Below are positions 1 through 27,628 of a stretch of 64,000 nucleotides of DNA, piece by piece. Each line of letters begins with the position of its first letter. The stretch's first letter is position 1. The position numbers and the translations under genes are program-made. The notes below the pieces were generated by a model. That model searched no databases. It worked only from the letters and a program-made list of their open reading frames with translations, and had not been told where the DNA came from. Source of the stretch: Rhizophagus irregularis (lineage: Eukaryota; Glomeromycota; Glomeromycetes; Glomerales; Glomeraceae); NCBI RefSeq assembly GCF_026210795.1, contig NC_089447.1:2854501-2918500 (forward strand). Direction: 5' to 3'.

Positions 1-1675
1 TAGTTTTAGGATTTGTTATATCCGAATTTTTTGTTCCTTGTTCAATAATTTTTTCTTCCGATTGTATTTTTTGACTTTCATCACCATGTAATTTGTTATT
101 TGCCTCATCTATTAAATCTAAAGCAGAAAAATAATCTCCCTGCCCCAGTAACACTTGTATCATCGGTTGAGTAGATCTGATTTCGGAAACCATTCTTAAT
201 CCTTCATAAAGTCTTCCCATATTTATTCGACGTCTTTTTAATCTAACAACTTCAAGTCCTTTTTTTGCTTGAGCATTATCTACTTCATCTAATTTTTCTC
301 TTAAATTATTAATTTGCGAAATACATTCTAATGTTTCAGAATGTAAGGCTTGAAGATTTGATAAAGCGGCAAAAAATGATGATGATCTTAATGAAATTTC
401 TTTAACTAAATGAACTTCAACCGTATCAAGATAGTGTGAAAGTTTTTCTTGTAAAATTGCGTTTGTTGAAATTGTAGGATTTTTAGGATTGCCCCCTATA
501 ATATCTGTTTGTTCACAAACAATATCAAAAGTTCGAGGATTTTCTAAATTAAACTCGGGATCAAAAAATATTGAAGGAACTGTCTCTAATAATGGAAGTT
601 CTATGACAGGTTCTGGTGTTTGATCATCTCCCGGTGAAGGAAGAGGTAAATGAACTGTATAAGGGTTTCGTGTACTGGCAAGTCGATGAACTGGAATCTG
701 ATTTTCTGCCTCTTTAGAGGCTTGTAAATCCTCAAGATTGTTCGCCAATAAATTAGTTACGGATGCAACCGGAGATTCTGTTAAGGGTAATGTGGATTTT
801 CTTGATTGTAATCCTTCAGCATCAAGTTCTTTATTATGACTGTACCTTTCAAATACAGGAGTAATCTGTTTTATATAACTACTAAAATCGGATGGTTTAA
901 CTTTCCTTATATTAACGTGAGGCACTGTTGGAATATCGTTCTTCGAAGGTCTTACACTGTTAGGTGATTTCGTGTTTGGGTTATTTAACACTCCAGAAAT
1001 CGCTAACAATTATAATAATTTTTTATCAAATCAGACCATGAATTTTAAAATCGAATTACAAACCAATTTAAAATATCCCAACCCAATAAAATGAAAAATA
1101 CCGTTGAAACCGATATCCTTTTTAGTAAAATAAATTTTTTTTTAGAAAAAAGAATAAAGAAATATTATATTAATGAAATACAAAAAAATTCTTGATTCAA
1201 TTCTTTTCAGCTTCATAACTATATTAAAAAAAAAACATAAAATTATCATATAATAAGCATGATATTAAGAATCTCCGAAATTCTCTAAAACTCACAAATC
1301 GGTTAAAGAAATATCATGCAGATTAATATGAATCAATGAAATTACCTTGGTAGTCCAAGGAAGTGAAGTCTCTGACATTGTGCTAAAATTTGATATCGAT
1401 GAATTCATTGAGACACGACGAGCAAGACCTCGACTATAACCCCTATTATAAAAAGACATTGCTGAAGAAACTCGTTGATTTTTAAGTGTAGTATTATAGT
1501 AATCGCTATTATCAAAGCTACGAGCCGAAGAGGAGGAGAAACGACGAGGAGTTTGTGGTGGTGTAGCATCCGAACCTTGAGTTTTTGAGGACTTCGGTGA
1601 GATAGAATCCGAACGTCCAGCTACTGAAGATTCAGCGCCTACAGTAGGCGATTTTGAATTCTCGCTTCTATCCAT
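1..1675 (-). CDS. VPS54: VPS54-like GARP tethering-complex subunit, 5' part (runs off left edge)
   Basis: Read on the minus strand, 1002-1 is one open coding exon. It holds a helical block typical of the Vps54 N-terminal region: a segment reading SHYLDTVEVHLVKEISLRSS, then AKKGLEVVRLKRRRINMGRL, then STQPMIQVLLGQGDYFSALD. In the family this is the coiled-coil part that assembles with Vps51-53 to tether endosome-derived vesicles at the trans-Golgi. The first exon starts with ATG at 1675 and is Ser/Thr/Arg-rich, as expected of a disordered N terminus. Its likely donor is AAG|GTAATT at 1346/1345; a second strong donor, GTGAGT, lies at 1295. The clear acceptor TTAG precedes 1002. Neither donor gives a matching phase with that acceptor, so a small extra exon within 1003-1345 or a different junction is likely. 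The gene continues beyond base 1. Family call fairly sure; 5' splicing unresolved. Confidence 0.8.
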
Positions 1676-2592: not shown

Positions 2593-4749
2593 CTATATCC
2601 AAGATTCATCATAAGCACGTTGTTGAACGATAGTTAATTCAGGTTCTTCAGGTAATTCGCTCTCATTTTCAGGAGGAATTTCAAATTCCTTAAGTGGTTT
2701 AGGATTTATATCTTCAACGGTAGAATTCCTTTCAGTAATATTAGATAATAAAGTTGATTTTCTTAAAACATTAACTTCAAAAGATAAATCAGTATCATTC
2801 AAAGAAGATTCATTCATGGTAAATATAGTAGATTCTCTATATGTAAATTCGTCGTCGTTATCATGATCATCATTTTCGTAAATTTCTTCCGCTTCTTCCT
2901 CATATACGATTTCATGTTGTTGATTATATGTTTCGTTAACAGAAAAGTTTTGATCTTGATAATTTAAATTAGTTTCTTTTCCAGAATAAAATTCAGTATG
3001 CTTGTTTGTCTCTTCATTTGGGACTTTTCTCTGTTGAAAAGAATCATGGACTTCAAATGAAAGTTCAGCTTCAGTCATATAAACAGGAATTGATGATTCT
3101 TCTTCTACTTCTTCTTCATATTCTTCTTCAATACCAAAATTTTCCATAATAGGAGATAAAACATCAACACTAGGAGATTGAATAGCGCATTGTTCCTGCG
3201 GAGGATCATTAACTTCTTGTGGGGGATCATTAGGATCATTAACTTCTTCAGGAGCCTCATCCAAAGCAAGAGAAGATACAGGACTATAAGCAAGACTTGA
3301 TCTATCATCATCAGCAATAAACGAAGAACTATTACTAGAAGCCGAAGAACGAGTAATAATTTTTGGAGCAGCATATTCCTTAAATTTTAATTTTTGATTA
3401 TATATTCTAATATCACCACCCTTTGGAGTATGATTAATATTATCCAAAGAGCCAACTTTAGGTTTTACTTCGGGAAGTTGTAGTTTACTGTCAAATATTA
3501 CTATATCACCACCCTTTCGAGTATGATTGATATTATCTAAAGAGCCAACACGAGATTTTACTTCGGTAAGTTGTAATTTACTATCAAATATTACTATATC
3601 ACCACCCTTTGGAGTATAATTAATATTATCTAAAGAGCCAACACGAGATTTCGCATTGGAGAAATTTAATTTGTCATTAAATATTGTCTTATCACCACCT
3701 TTTGGAACATAGTCAATATTATCCAAAGAACCAACACGTGAATGCACATTTTTAAAATCGGGTTTGCTGGAAAAAATTTTAACATTACCACCTAATGATA
3801 CATAATTAATAATTAGTTAGTAAAATGATTTTAGATCGAGAATAAGTATAAGATAAATTGTTTTTTTCATTTCACCTTTTATTTCGTGTTTAAAATTGTC
3901 AAATGAACCGACACGTGACTTCGCCTTTGAAAAATCTGTCTTTATGGAAAATATTTTGACTTCCCCTCCCTTTGGTGTATGATTTACATTTTCTAGTGAG
4001 GCTATACGCGATTTCACATTGGAAAAATCCTTTTTTTCTGAACATATTTTTACATCGCCACTTTTTGGCTTGTGTTTTATATTCTCCAATGAACCTACAC
4101 GTGATCTTACATTAGAAAACTTTGCAGACTTGTTATCACCAGTACTATTGGAAGAATTATTACTGCTAGTTTGAGATGAAGTATCACTTATATCGGAAGT
4201 GTCTTGCGTCGTCGCTGTTGCAGAAGGGCTATTCACTATTCTCTTTGTTGTGGGAGAACTATTCACTATTCTTGTTGCTGCGGGAGGGTCATTCACTATT
4301 TTTGTTGCTGCGGGGGGACCATTCACTATTCTCTTTGCTGCGGGAGGGCCATTCACTATTTTTGTTGCTGCGGGAGGGCCATTCACTATTCTTGTTGCGA
4401 CAGGTGGACCATTCACTGTTTTTGTTAATGCAGGGGGATTAGATATTTTTGTGGTTTGAGTTGTCTGAGTTATTTGAGTTATTTGTGTTGTCTGGGGTGA
4501 AGTAGTTCTATATGATGATGATGGTTTCTTTAATAGAGATTTTGATTGAGTTTTAAGCGCTTCTTGTTCTGTTGGTTGTGTTGGTTTCAGAGAAGGCGCA
4601 GTTTGTGAAGTTTTAGTAGTGGGGCGTGAAATAATGGAAGTTATGGAAGTTGGTTTACGAAGTTTCGTTGTAATATTTGGTTTAGTAGTTTCTTTTTCGG
4701 TTACTTTAAGTGACGGAGGCGCCGGTAATCTTGATTGAATAGCTGCCAT
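2593..4749 (-). CDS. tau/MAP2/MAP4-type microtubule-associated protein with seven tubulin-binding repeats
   Basis: Two exons, 4749-3876 and 3791-2593, encode 690 aa. The junction is phase-consistent (AAA G|GTGAAA ... TACTAAC ... CATTAG|GT GGT) and repairs an interrupted repeat. Residues about 214-431 hold seven tandem 31-aa repeats of the form SRVGSLDNINHTPKGGD followed by a xIFxxKLxF segment. This is the tubulin-binding repeat of animal tau, MAP2 and MAP4, with its K/R-x-GS-x-x-N and PGGG-like core; here the core reads PKGG. Upstream is a basic, Ser/Thr/Pro/Lys-rich N terminus with a decapeptide array. Downstream is a long acidic Glu/Asp/Ser-rich tail, so the layout resembles tau: a proline-rich basic region, then repeats. 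By family it should bind and stabilise the microtubule lattice; that is inferred. No transmembrane or catalytic segment is visible. Most tau proteins have three to five repeats, so seven is unusual. Confidence 0.88.
3372..4110 (-). repeat. seven tandem tau-type repeats (93 bp unit), split by an intron
   Basis: Seven 31-codon units, beginning SRVGSLEN, SRIASLEN, SRVGSFDN, SRVGSLDN, SRVGSLDN, SRVGSLDN and PKVGSLDN. The third is interrupted by the intron at 3875-3792. Units 4-7 are closest to one another at the DNA level (around 'ccaccctttggagtat...attatctaaagagccaacacgagattt'), which suggests recent unit duplication. The first two units are more diverged. Confidence 0.9.
4225..4440 (-). repeat. 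30-bp tandem repeat encoding NGPPAATKIV decapeptides
   Basis: About seven consecutive 10-residue units around the core IVNGPPAATK/R lie just N-terminal to the microtubule-binding repeats. The DNA unit on the plus strand is close to 'gggccattcactatt' plus 'cttgttgctgcggga'. The encoded stretch is basic and proline-rich, in the position of tau's proline-rich flank. The later units drift to NDPP, NSSP and NSPS. Confidence 0.85.
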
Positions 4750-6108: not shown

Positions 6109-7603
6109 TTATTCTTTTTCTTGAAAAATATGATGTTTCTTTTCGTTAATATTATTCTCTAAACTTGCTTCCTCCATTTTTGTAACTATCCTTCCCATAC
6201 TATCTATACCGCTACGTTTCTCTACCGTTTGTCCACGTGAACGCGGTAAATATTCTGGAAGTGTTGTAATAACATAATCCATCTATTAAATTAACCAAAT
6301 TAACCGAAAGGGAGAAGGAAAAAAAAAAAAATGTCAAAAATTTATAATAAAAAAATTATATATACATGTATATATTAAAAAATTCATTTTACCAATTTTT
6401 CACAAACTTCATTTTTTAATTCATGAGCTAATTTAACATTCGAAGCTACAATAATAAAAGTTAAATAAGTAATGTAATTTCACAAGAAACAAACAAATAA
6501 AAAAAAACAATAATATATATATATATACCAGTCATAAAAGCTCTTAATTTTAAACAATCCTCTTTACATTCTTCAATAGATAAACTACCATTACGGTGAT
6601 CCCAATTTTTAGATTTTTTTAAAATACTATTCATGAAATATTGTTTTAGATCTTCCAAGGGTACACCAAAATCGACAAAAAAATCAAAATAAATTCCTAT
6701 ATTCTCTTCAGTTTTTGTCCAATTTTCAAATGTACCATTAATAATACGAGATAAAGGAATTATGATACGTCGTTGATCATATGTTCTAACTACAATAAAT
6801 TGAGCTTCAATTTCTTCTACAACACCTTGATAACCATCAATCACAATATAATCATCAAGCAAGAGAGGTTGTGTTAAAGCAATTTGTAAAGAAGCAATTA
6901 AATTTTCCATCGAAGGTTTAGCAGCAAAACCAACTAATAGTGCCGCTACGCTTGCACTTGCTAATATGCTCACTCCAATTTCCCATGCTCTGGGAAATGT
7001 TAAAAGAATTGCGGCCGCAGCTACCCAAAATATCATACCATAAATTATCCTTGTTGCAACTATTAATTGAGTATGTAATTTACGTGATTGTAAACTATTT
7101 GTCGATTTAATATAATCATTATTTTGTGATATCGCTACTGAAGCTGCTTTAGTGAATCCTACCGCTGACCATGATGTAAATATTATTAATAATATTTCAA
7201 ATGCGTGTCTTATTGGGTCCATTATCGCTATATCTATATCTGGTATAAACGATAATGTTACTAATACTGATATTAATGGAAATATAAAAAATGATGGCAG
7301 TGCACTATTGAATGGAAGTTAAAAAAAAAATGAAAAATGAAAATTTCAATCACCAAAAGGTTAATTTAATTACAATAAAGTTTAAGATAATTACCAATGT
7401 TTTACTACTTCTTTATCAAATGCCCATCCCGTTTTCTTTGCAATTTGCTTGAGTATAAATGTGATAAATAAATGAACCAACATTGATCCAATCGCAATTC
7501 CTCCAATAATTACTAAAGGAATCGTTCTATTTCCATTAGAAAATGTTAATACATTAGTATTATTATTGGGTAATGATCCATTATATGTCTCGGGTGTGGC
7601 CAT
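6109..7603 (-). CDS. MscS-type small-conductance mechanosensitive ion channel
   Basis: Four exons, 7603-7395, 7304-6529, 6445-6393 and 6282-6109, join in phase to give 403 aa. An upstream in-frame ATG exists at 7858, but MATPETYN at 7603 is preferred because the 85 residues before it look non-coding. The N terminus has an N-glycosylation-like Asn-rich start, then several hydrophobic segments. The pore-lining helix ends LASASVAALLVGFAA and is followed by the MscS beta-domain signature: LIASLQIALTQPLLLDDYIV, a G-x-x-G-V-V-E-E-I motif and RIIIPLSRIINGTFENWTKT. Such channels open under membrane tension and release osmolytes. The architecture is the compact bacterial type; no EF-hand of the fungal Msy1/Msy2 type was seen. 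The last exon encodes a short charged tail. It is divergent from the DUF7721-like gene, with about 470 bp between starts. Confidence 0.85.
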
Positions 7604-24405: not shown

Positions 24406-25264
24406 TGAACAATTTGAACTTTTTACCTATTGTGCTTTTTCATTGGATCTGATTATTTTTTTTTTTTTTTTTAAGAATTATTTAAAAACGACATTGTATA
24501 TAGTCCTTGGATTTTCTGATTGTTTCTTCACATATTATTAAAAGACCATTGAAATCATACTTTTACATATTAATGTTGGTAGATTCTTACTTGATGAAAA
24601 TAAAAATCTGCTTTGACATTAATATGTCCAGGTTTTTTAGGTTTCTTAGGTTTCATTTGTTATATTTTTTTTTCCTTTTCCTTTATTTTTCAGATAGTAG
24701 ATAAAACATTTTTTTCTTTCATTAGTTGTCCAAAAAGTGCTTTAAAAAAAAAAATTAGCAAAATTAAAAAAAAAAATTATACATATACTTTATGTTTGCT
24801 TTGTTCAGTTAAATTATATTAAAAAAAAAAATGACTCAAAATTTTAATCTATTTATACATAATTTATTGTGTTCCTACTTTCTAATATATTTCTAGTGTA
24901 AAAAGGAAAAAAAAAGGTACTGGATACCAAAAAAAAAAAAAAACCAACAAAAAAAAGCGAATTTCTTTTCTTTGAATAAATGTTGAACATATGAAATATT
25001 ATATTCAAATATATATATATTAATATTATATATTTTGACCTTTATAATAGGGAGATTTTTTTTTTTCTCGTAAAAGATGTTATAAAATGTTATAAATTAA
25101 TGATTAATAATGATTAATCTTAAATTTTAACCTTAATACAAGATCTAAAAATTTGACATCACGTGATATATGATAATAATGTCACTGTGCTACCATAATA
25201 TCACTTTTATTTTGATGTCGTTGATGTCTACAAAAAAAAAGAAAAGAAATTGCGTTTTATTATT
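24406..25264. other. kinase-DDX59 intergenic region
   Basis: AT-rich spacer with homopolymers; a TCACGTGA site lies at 25159-25166. Short ORFs here have no protein-like composition. Confidence 0.5.
25159..25166. promoter_or_regulatory. TCACGTGA palindrome upstream of the DDX59-like gene
   Basis: Perfect palindrome with a CACGTG core, about 100 bp upstream of the start codon at 25265. Confidence 0.45.
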
Positions 25265-27628
25265 ATGTTTGTTCCTCGAGCTGTTAAAAGACCTGGGCCA
25301 ATTTCTATAAATCGGAATAAAAAACCAAAAACGGTAATTTCGTCTTCGGAAGTTCCTTCAACAACTTCCACTTCTTCGATTTCTAAAAAGGACACAGAAG
25401 AAAATTTAAATATCAGTAATCAAGTAACTGAAAAATTGGACCTCGACAAGCAAAGCAATATTACTGTAGATTTAAAAACTAAACATATAAATCACGACAA
25501 AAAAGACAAGATAACGACATGTATAGATTTAATGGCCAATGATAAACAAAACGAACCAGGCCTGAAACTTATAAATGAGCAAAATCGGCTTACAGCTCAA
25601 CAAATAATTTCAGCAGAAGTTGATTGGCACATGGAAGATAACTCTGAACAAAATGTAGTCCAACAGAATGTAATTCAACAGAATGTAGTCCAACAGAATG
25701 TAATTCAACAGAATGTAAACCAACAGAATGTCGTCGAACAGAATGTAGTCGAACAGAATGTAGTCGAACAGAATGTATTCGAACAGAATGTTGTCGAACA
25801 GAGTGTAGTCGAACAGAATGTATTCGAACAGAATGTAGTCGAACAGAATGTCGTCGAACAGAATGTTGTCGTACATCAAGAAATCAAGAATCAATTAGAA
25901 AAAGTGCCTGAAGTGGATGCACAAGATTCAGGTTCACAAGAAGAAGAACCGGTGAAAGAGTATAATTATCAACAACGAGTAGCTTCTTCTGGAGAACCAA
26001 TTTGCGTGATATGTGGAAAATATGGCGAATATATTTGTGATCAAACAGAACATGATGTTTGTAGTTTGGAATGTAAGAAAATAGATATTGGACGTGTAAA
26101 AAGGACATATTCTAAAATTACAGTACAAACACCAATTTCAGATTCATTTCATGTGAATCTTACAGGCTATATACCAGATGCAATTATAGGTTCTTTGGCA
26201 GATATTCAAGTACAATCAATTTTAACAAGAAATCGAATTAGTGTTCAAGGAAAAAATATTCCTAGACCAATATTAAGTTTTACGCAATGTAAGTTACCAA
26301 CGAAAATGATGGAAAATTTACAAACAGAGGGGTATACACAACCGACATCAATTCAAATGCAAGCAATTCCTACGGCATTAGTCGGACGTGATATATTAGC
26401 AAGTGGACAAACTGGATCAGGAAAAACTGCAAGTTTTTTAATTCCAATAATTTCACATTGTCATTCGTTATCACAATGTTATGAAGGAAAAAATGGTCCT
26501 TATGCAATTATACTTGCACCAACAAGAGAACTTTGTTCTCAAATTGAAAATTTAGCAAAAAGTTTAATTAAAGGATTATTGAATATGAAGACTGCATTAT
26601 TAGTTGGAGGTTTGCCTATGCCAAATCAAGTTCATCGATTAAAACAAGGAATACAAATTGCATTTGCAACACCGGGAAGGCTTATCGATATATTGAATCA
26701 ACATAATAAAGAACTATCGATGAATAATATTCATATGTTTGTACTAGATGAAGTTGACATGATGTTTAAAATGGGATTTGAGAATCAGGTTAAAGAAATT
26801 ATAAATAAATTACCTTTACCAGCTACAAGTTTACAGCGTCAAACTCTGATGTTTTCTGCCACGATTCCGGAAAATATTGAAAAACTCGCAAAATCTTTAC
26901 TTAAAGATTATATTAGAATTATCGTAGGAGTTCAACAATATAAAAATGAAAATTTAGATAGTTCACTTTCGAATTTCATTCCGAATATTCCTGTTAAACA
27001 GACTATTCTTTGGGTGGAAAATAAGTCTAAAAAGAAACAATTATTTTCACTCTTGAATGATCCGAAATATTATAAACCACCTATAGTTATATTTGTAGAA
27101 TCCAAGCTGGGAGCAGATTTATTATCGCAAGCTATTGAAAAGAAATGCAACGCAAGAAGTGTAAGTATACATGGTGACAAATCACAAGAAGAAAGGATGA
27201 TGATTTTGCAATCATTTCTTAATGGAGAATATGAGATTATAGTATCGACAGGAGTGTTAAGTAGAGGATTAAATTTTCCTAATGTTGAAATGGTAATAAA
27301 TTTTGATATGGCTACATCTGTCGATGAATATATTCATCAAGTTGGAAGAGCTGCTGGAAATGACAGTCTTAGAAACTCTGAACTTTCTTCTGGTTGGAGT
27401 ATCACATTCATTAATGAGGTATGTTCATTTGAGCTAACATAATGGGATTATATAATAAATAATTAAAAATTTTTCTTTTTCTTTAAGGACCACAAACATC
27501 TGTTTAAAAAATTTGTTAGTATGTTAAAAGCACAACCAGCCGGAAGGGTGACACCATTACCAACAAAATTACTTGGACATGGATACACGTTATATGGAAA
27601 TAACAAGTCATTGTCATCTAGAAAATGA
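25265..27628 (+). CDS. DDX59: DDX59-like DEAD-box RNA helicase with HIT-type zinc finger
   Basis: Two exons (25265-27418 and 27488-27628) join in phase 0 to 764 aa. The start at 25265 is chosen over 25250 because MFVPR matches the N terminus of animal DDX59. After a disordered region and a 15-unit pentapeptide array comes a zf-HIT finger (ICVICGKYGEYICDQTEHDV then CSLEC). The RecA core has the Q-motif, GQTGSGKT, PTRELCSQ, TPGR, DEVD in place of DEAD, SAT, and VSTGVLSRGLNFPNVEMVIN. Motif VI reads HQVGRAAGND rather than the usual H-R-x-G-R-x-G-R, so its last arginine is missing. The second exon supplies the expected C-terminal end. Vertebrate DDX59 is a nuclear RNA helicase linked to ciliopathy; a role in this organism is unknown. 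Confidence 0.9.
25646..25870 (+). repeat. 15-bp tandem repeat, 15 copies, encoding (E/Q)QNV(V/I/F/N)
   Basis: Units such as 'gaacagaatgtagtc' and 'caacagaatgtaatt' repeat fifteen times in frame. The first part uses CAA (Gln) and the later part GAA (Glu) at position one, suggesting two expansion phases. Confidence 0.92.

Follow-up and report, generated by a model that had tools for sequence, protein, structure and literature searches.

A tau/MAP2/MAP4-family gene with seven repeats and a conserved acidic tail in the fungus Rhizophagus irregularis

Tau has been studied almost solely in neurons, and we know of no established ancestral job for it. A gene in a 64,000-nucleotide stretch of the Rhizophagus irregularis genome (contig NC_089447.1, positions 2,854,501 to 2,918,500; hereafter the window), for which a preliminary description proposed a tau/MAP2/MAP4-type protein, raises the question of whether a fungus carries a true member of this family, by which route it was acquired, and what it might do there. 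A single-copy family member in an organism free of neurons would make the ancestral job of tau testable.

Gene structure and family membership

Splicing out positions 3875..3792 yields an unbroken 690-aa frame from ATG to TAG, and removal of these 84 nt restores the third repeat (R3) to its full 31 aa; furthermore, the R. clarus homologue (P0001) shows no alignment gap at the exon junction. Ten donor/acceptor pairs were tried, and three alternative splice choices that also leave the frame open (667, 677, and 679 aa) were rejected, each of them shortening R3. The intact gene with an in-phase intron of the preliminary description was recovered exactly at 2593-4749, with an uninterrupted product of 690 aa and the following features.

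2593..4749, minus strand: whole tau/MAP-family gene, 690 aa, two exons (spliced translation; PF00418, E 1.5e-78)
3876..4749, minus strand: exon 1, ATG at 4749, with the N-terminal region, R1, R2, and most of R3 (spliced translation)
3792..3875, minus strand: intron, 84 nt, GT...AG, phase 1, within R3 (spliced translation; gap-free R. clarus alignment)
2593..3791, minus strand: exon 2, with the remainder of R3, R4-R7, array-end flank, acidic tail, and stop TAG (spliced translation)
4144..4749, minus strand: residues 1-202, basic Thr/Pro-rich region, net +17, including a 30-nt tandem array (TRF 4225-4426)
4051..4143, minus strand: repeat R1, residues 203-233 (PF00418, own-repeat profile, six-frame genome search)
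3958..4050, minus strand: repeat R2, residues 234-264 (same three sources as R1)
3781..3957, minus strand: repeat R3, residues 265-295, split by the intron (spliced translation, PF00418, own-repeat profile)
3688..3780, minus strand: repeat R4, residues 296-326 (as R1)
3595..3687, minus strand: repeat R5, residues 327-357 (as R1)
3502..3594, minus strand: repeat R6, residues 358-388 (as R1)
3409..3501, minus strand: repeat R7, residues 389-419, last of the array (as R1)
3355..3408, minus strand: array-end flank RIYNQKLKFKEYAAPKII, residues 420-437, like the stretch after the last repeat of tau, KLTFRENAKAK (sequence comparison)
2596..3354, minus strand: acidic tail, residues 438-690 (residues 434-690, net charge -50)
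2596..2808, minus strand: C-terminal module conserved in Glomeromycotina, residues 620-690, LNDTDLSFEVNVLRKSTLL ... EIPP ... ELTIVQQRAYDESWI-COOH (alignment)
6124..7600, minus strand: upstream neighbor, MscS-type mechanosensitive channel (PF00924; tblastn of Acaulospora P0018)

The Pfam search for PF00418, by which the preliminary description proposed to check its reading, matched the 690-aa product far above the cut-off of 27 bits (E 1.5e-78, 258.7 bits) in seven stretches, and in a six-frame search of the genome all seven repeats individually exceeded the curated cut-off. The seven consecutive 31-aa repeats were found as described, spanning residues 203-419 at a spacing of exactly 31 aa. Among sequences of solved structures, the 49 matched at E<=1e-3 are every one named tau; the best was 6cvn_D (E 9.3e-33), a chain of near-identical repeats per the alignment, followed by 7pqc_O (E 7.1e-32), where the alignment covers R1-R4 of tau. 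The protein genuinely belongs to the tau/MAP2/MAP4 repeat family (PF00418), and the profile search of the 146.7-Mb, 32-contig genome matched only the seven repeats of this gene, with no second PF00418 gene.

The hallmark core attributed to the repeats is present in all seven in the form [KR][VI][GA]S[LF][DE]N, but the motif is not uniform: xxGS occurs in six of seven (R2 reads RIAS), the basic core residue is Arg in six and Lys only in R7, Tyr replaces His in R4 and R5, and P-K-G-G occurs in four. PGGG, found in 0/7 repeats here, is present in other fungal members (e.g., Helicostylum, Pilobolus, and Geosiphon). Counts of amyloid hexapeptides across groups were discarded, since GG and GGG repeats put them out of register. 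At the DNA level, a 93-nt period with 85% matches spans 3402-3738, comprising R5-R7 and part of R4, and part of the array has therefore been homogenized or duplicated fairly recently; the R. clarus array, however, also has seven repeats, which align one-to-one with those of R. irregularis.

The word tau is loose for this gene, although the repeat family is right. Since the split of MAPT, MAP2, and MAP4 is placed in early vertebrates in excerpts of Sundermann et al. (2016; PMC4815063), the fungal gene can only be co-orthologous to the three jointly. Moreover, the strict vertebrate layout, in which an acidic projection domain forms the N-terminus and the repeats lie close to the C-terminal end, does not describe the fungal protein (N-terminus +17, C-terminus -50, repeats at residues 203-419 of 690).

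Occurrence in fungi, genomic setting, and descent

The family, introduced in the preliminary description as known from animals, is not restricted to them: members from two chytrids, Calcarisporiella, Lobosporangium, Mucorales, and Glomeromycotina were named in the first search alone; and the gene, whose absence from related fungi would have pointed to an artefact, was found across three protein searches in at least 25 named fungal genera. These include at least nine genera of Glomeromycotina (Rhizophagus, Racocetra, Gigaspora, Funneliformis, Paraglomus, Cetraspora, Acaulospora, Geosiphon, and Ambispora), at least seven of Mucorales (Helicostylum, Rhizopus, Pilobolus, Benjaminiella, Mycotypha, Syncephalastrum, and Cokeromyces), and at least seven of chytrids (Irineochytrium, Rhizophlyctis, Geranomyces, Powellomyces, Phlyctochytrium, Spizellomyces, and Thoreauomyces), with Lobosporangium and Calcarisporiella in addition. 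No Dikarya appeared among the organism-named matches listed (74 at E<=1e-3, from 7993 best candidates scored; the best 120 of 973; the best 120 of 3940), many of the matches being nameless, and choanoflagellates, filastereans, more fungi, and Dikarya could lie beyond the matches listed.

Nor was the family without a record in fungi, as the preliminary description had supposed: excerpts of Sundermann et al. (2016; PMC4815063) present a Rhizopus delemar MAP homologue as an outgroup with a 'distinct' architecture. Databases automatically label several fungal members, a Gigaspora protein being named 'microtubule-associated protein tau-like'. Among the papers listed in a literature search that leaves aside most subscription journals and all preprints, R. 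delemar was the sole source of a fungal tau-family member, and the listed titles and abstracts gave no paper identifiable as describing one from an arbuscular mycorrhizal fungus. Seven repeats had also been seen as exceeding the usual animal three to five. By a profile made from the repeats of the R. irregularis gene, which favors close relatives, the first-search proteins carry 2 to 10 repeats in named fungi and likewise 2 to 10 in named animals (10 in the mollusc Nucella, 9 in Mercenaria, 5-7 in fish proteins), and seven repeats are ordinary for the family.

As stated in the preliminary description, the gene lies among ordinary genes. Nine of the ten other ORFs scanned in the 64-kb window match ordinary Pfam families at E<=1e-5 and one matches none, the families being PIF1 helicase, UBA/ubiquilin, HMG box, DEAD-box with zf-HIT, amidohydrolase, XRN, PAP2, ARMT1-like, and zinc dehydrogenase. 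The DEAD-box helicase with a HIT zinc finger (25199-27439, plus strand), which is probably DDX59-like, has a QQNVVEQNV-type repeat near its N-terminus; and an ORF leaving the window edge (2-1009, minus strand) resembles the GARP subunit Vps54. The upstream same-strand neighbor is the MscS-type channel (PF00924, E 9.3e-15). In this context, the 860-aa model P0018 of Acaulospora morrowiae matched by tblastn both the channel (7600-6124), with pieces within residues 3-396 (main piece 44% identical, E 2.8e-96), and the tau-family gene, with pieces within residues 443-860; the simplest reading of this one comparison is a prediction that fuses two adjacent genes, the order of which would be common to both fungi. 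Another fused gene model is presumably Rhizophlyctis rosea P0047, whose N-terminus resembles the end of a Nudix hydrolase.

Behind the last repeat, some fungal members carry a flank, KLKFKEYAAPKI in R. irregularis, KLRFRDIASPRIDAG in Pilobolus, KLKFRETAAPKIDAG in Geosiphon, and EKLTFKDTASSRIDA in chytrid P0086, and the corresponding animal array ends read KLTFRENAKAKTDHG (Galemys tau), KLNFREHAKARVDHG (chicken MAP2), and KLVFKDTASPRTDTG (Asterias). A flank pattern drawn up post hoc from these sequences matched 8/31 fungal proteins, 62/141 other proteins, most of these 62 being non-independent vertebrate tau/MAP2 isoforms, and 0/8700 shuffled sequences. The R. irregularis flank, without the DxG end, lies outside the full pattern, as does P0086; the latter shares 29/49 residues with Asterias over last repeat and flank, and the other nine of ten chytrid proteins have a different array end. 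The flank occupies the position of the R' pseudo-repeat of tau (a term used in excerpts of PMC13224075). These similarities suggest that the array end, and not the repeat unit alone, is common to some fungi and animals, and that the array with its R' end may predate the animal/fungus split.

Nothing was found in favor of animal-DNA contamination or a chance low-complexity match beyond the tandem nature of the repeats and the minisatellite-like array in the region ahead of them. Against both stand the location of the gene in a 4.16-Mb contig of the 32-contig, 146.7-Mb assembly, the R. clarus homologue (88% identity over 95% of the repeat region, 76% over the whole length), the MscS neighbor also present in Acaulospora, and a PF00418 score of 258.7 bits against a cut-off of 27. 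Both explanations were rejected, their probability being negligible in our judgment, in line with the earlier opinion that contamination was unlikely. The R. clarus protein is the best named homologue, and a further database protein reaches 99% identity over 59% of the repeat region.

A rival reading is horizontal transfer of an animal tau-family gene early in fungal history, once or more. The occurrence of such genes in many early-branching fungi makes it probable that the tau family arose before animals did, and we favor vertical inheritance from an ancestor common to both kingdoms, on the basis of distribution and not of a tree. The repeats themselves are as close to animals as to other Mucoromycota, with best identities of 15-16/24 to 24 animal proteins and 13-15/24 to eight proteins of Mucorales, Lobosporangium, and Calcarisporiella, with animals scoring above these fungi in four of seven repeats; all seven, however, have their best match outside R. 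clarus in another Glomeromycotina. An array-end tree of 24 rows (14 fungi and 10 animals) and 49 columns, which holds too little signal to separate descent from transfer, gathered 13 of its 14 fungal rows into a single starred group (95/90) and placed chytrid P0086 among animals at an unresolved fork; a branch dividing fungi from animals was present in 0% of 200 bootstrap trees, as transfer would allow, but a constraint holding all 14 together was not rejected (p-AU 0.124). The 14 fungal rows were picked out of 32 named fungal proteins, the R. irregularis one included, for a recognizable flank, seen in only one of ten chytrid proteins; of 13 animals offered, Mercenaria, Mya, and Dreissena gave no match in extraction and were dropped, and Batillaria stands out among the rows by its very long branch and its odd composition. 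With a tree of 49 columns, the case against transfer rests mainly on distribution, namely the presence of the family in Glomeromycotina, Mucorales, Lobosporangium, Calcarisporiella, and at least seven chytrid genera, and transfer appears improbable to us.

The acidic tail and its C-terminal module

The basic proline-rich region reported ahead of the repeats was confirmed, residues 1-202 having a net charge of +17 with 25 Pro and 38 Thr, as was the acidic tail behind them (residues 434-690, net -50). The 30-nt tandem array in the former (4225-4426, in frame, 6.7 copies, 82% matches) encodes VNGPPAATKI-like 10-aa units, which are fewer in the R. clarus protein. The charge order of the R. irregularis protein, +17 in the N-terminus, +17 in the repeats, and -50 in the C-terminal region, is shared by its relatives: all 13 named Glomeromycotina proteins compared, including this one, have PF00418, a positive N-terminal part (in Acaulospora, with the fused channel counted in), a positive array, and a C-terminal region of -16 to -50. 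The C-terminal region measures -2 to +6 in six Mucorales (Rhizopus P0022 being a run-on model) and -2 to +2 in nine chytrid proteins, where it is only 3 to 79 residues long. Four of seven animals were measurable, giving +15, +1, -1, and +2 for the C-terminal region and -32, -49, +20, and +10 for the N-terminal part; as far as these four show, animals do not all have an acidic N-terminus. P0071, P0072, and P0039 stood outside the charge comparison with too few core matches, and since P0071, from Lobosporangium, seems by eye to have an acidic tail, this feature may extend beyond Glomeromycotina.

The tail ends in a module, ...FxVNxxRKxxL...YxxS(W), conserved in 13/13 named Glomeromycotina proteins, with L627, F629, V631, N632, R635, K636, L639, P665, Y685, and S688 invariant in the alignment. 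The SW(I/L) terminus is present in all 12 complete ends, the partial Racocetra model halting just short of it. By eye, the module was absent from the C-termini of seven other fungal proteins (five Mucorales, Lobosporangium, and Calcarisporiella). A search of the R. irregularis genome with the last 75 residues returned the gene itself and then one match at E 2.97, taken as noise, and scanning the 13 Glomeromycotina proteins gave no Pfam match for the module. Two other Pfam matches in these 13 proteins were judged spurious: PF12488 (DUF3704) in eight (best E 3.8e-07; 19.5 against a cut-off of 21.9 in the R. irregularis protein) and PF10267 in two, which also matches an Anolis tau isoform. A narrow tail-end pattern, [FY]D[ED][SA][WY], searched in the last 60 residues, found 6 of 173 proteins, four of them named Glomeromycotina and the others P0006 and P0007; it is too narrow, and misses other module-bearing Glomeromycotina.

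The family and one fungal member were already in print. What looks new is the unusual architecture, with a conserved acidic tail, not found in the few animal relatives measured, that ends in the module. The C-terminal module is the least explained and most novel part of the protein and, as a defined lineage-specific peptide, could be used as bait for partners.

Probable microtubule binding, proposed cellular role, and known systems

As described in excerpts of two papers on tau, Glu434 of alpha-tubulin is contacted by Ser262, which lies in the IGSTEN motif, and binding becomes weaker when MARK phosphorylates this serine (PMC13224075; PMC7604284). Equivalents of Ser262 and of Asn265 are present in all seven fungal repeats, and the alpha-tubulin of the genome (contig C31, mostly one 419-aa frame) retains Glu434 and the acidic tail, as judged from a gap-free alignment with residues 404-450 of an alpha-tubulin of solved structure. 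Conserved Glu434 carries little weight, since alpha-tubulin is almost invariant among eukaryotes. Because the Ser and Asn recur in every repeat and Glu434 is present on the tubulin side, the repeats very likely bind the microtubule lattice. Elsewhere in the genome, tubulin-domain matches were weak or fragmentary: one (L012, C30:357996-358214) looks like a divergent tubulin, perhaps gamma, and another (L017, C6:5359424-5359507) resembles a beta-tubulin fragment followed by Pro-rich low-complexity sequence.

The most likely role, as far as sequence can indicate it, is that of a tau-like lattice binder presenting an acidic tail. The protein is probably mostly disordered, and its seven repeats would lie end to end on a protofilament, each [KR]xGS-xxN core at the C-terminal region of alpha-tubulin, with the basic Thr/Pro-rich N-terminal region reinforcing the binding through acidic tubulin tails. 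A MARK-type kinase, in fungi presumably Kin1, could phosphorylate the repeat serines and weaken binding. What the tail does is a guess: it may project off the lattice or fold back onto the repeats, and its conserved last ~70 residues could act as a docking peptide that a partner recognizes. Acidic tails can also inhibit binding. In the cell, such a protein might stabilize and space the long microtubule tracks of aseptate hyphae. As a whole, this explanation, namely a vertically inherited fungal MAP2/MAP4/tau member, mostly disordered, binding the lattice, docking through its tail, and stabilizing hyphal tracks, is one in which we have considerable confidence.

A relative of tau by descent could also work mainly in the mitotic spindle and in nuclear positioning, as a MAP4-like protein, and not as a stabilizer of the interphase hyphal lattice. 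MAP4 is the widely expressed member in vertebrates, multinucleate hyphae are generally understood to require spindle and nuclear control, and no sequence feature distinguishes spindle from interphase use; we consider this use rather unlikely, and prefer hyphal-track stabilization. More speculatively, and with somewhat more doubt than belief, tau may predate animals and have been retained by early-branching fungi as a general microtubule protein of hyphae (and zoospores), with arbuscular mycorrhizal fungi having evolved a distinct 'reversed' tau, in which the conserved acidic tail and the YxxSW(I/L) peptide at the C-terminus would dock a fungus-specific partner to cargo tracks in aseptate hyphae, and Dikarya having lost the family.

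Compared with known systems, the protein shares with vertebrate MAPT, MAP2, and MAP4 the tandem 31-aa repeats, the [KR]xGS core with Asn three residues past the serine, and the basic Pro-rich region ahead of the repeats; the flank behind its last repeat resembles their KLxFRExA type. It differs from them in having its seven repeats mid-protein, followed by a 257-aa acidic C-terminal region with a conserved end. At the sites of Lys and PGGG in tau, its repeats usually show Arg and PKGG, and its N-terminus is basic and its C-terminus acidic, whereas the N-terminus of tau is acidic in excerpts of PMC7604284.

Invertebrate MAP/tau-like proteins (e.g., of Nucella, Mercenaria, and Asterias) belong to the same Pfam family and have up to 10 repeats; unlike the fungal protein, their C-terminal region is non-acidic in the four measured (+15, +1, -1, and +2), and the charge of the N-terminal part differs among them (two molluscs, -32 and -49; Aedes, +20; Caenorhabditis, +10). 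Among fungi, Rhizopus arrhizus P0022, a relative of the R. delemar homologue and compared here as a stand-in for its sequence, has 10 repeats and by eye neither the acidic tail nor the FEVNV...YDxSWI module, its model continuing into other domains. Among the other Glomeromycotina proteins, Gigaspora margarita P0005 ('microtubule-associated protein tau-like isoform X1') is a direct homologue with the repeats, the acidic C-terminal region, and the module, and differs in having eight repeats and 565 aa.
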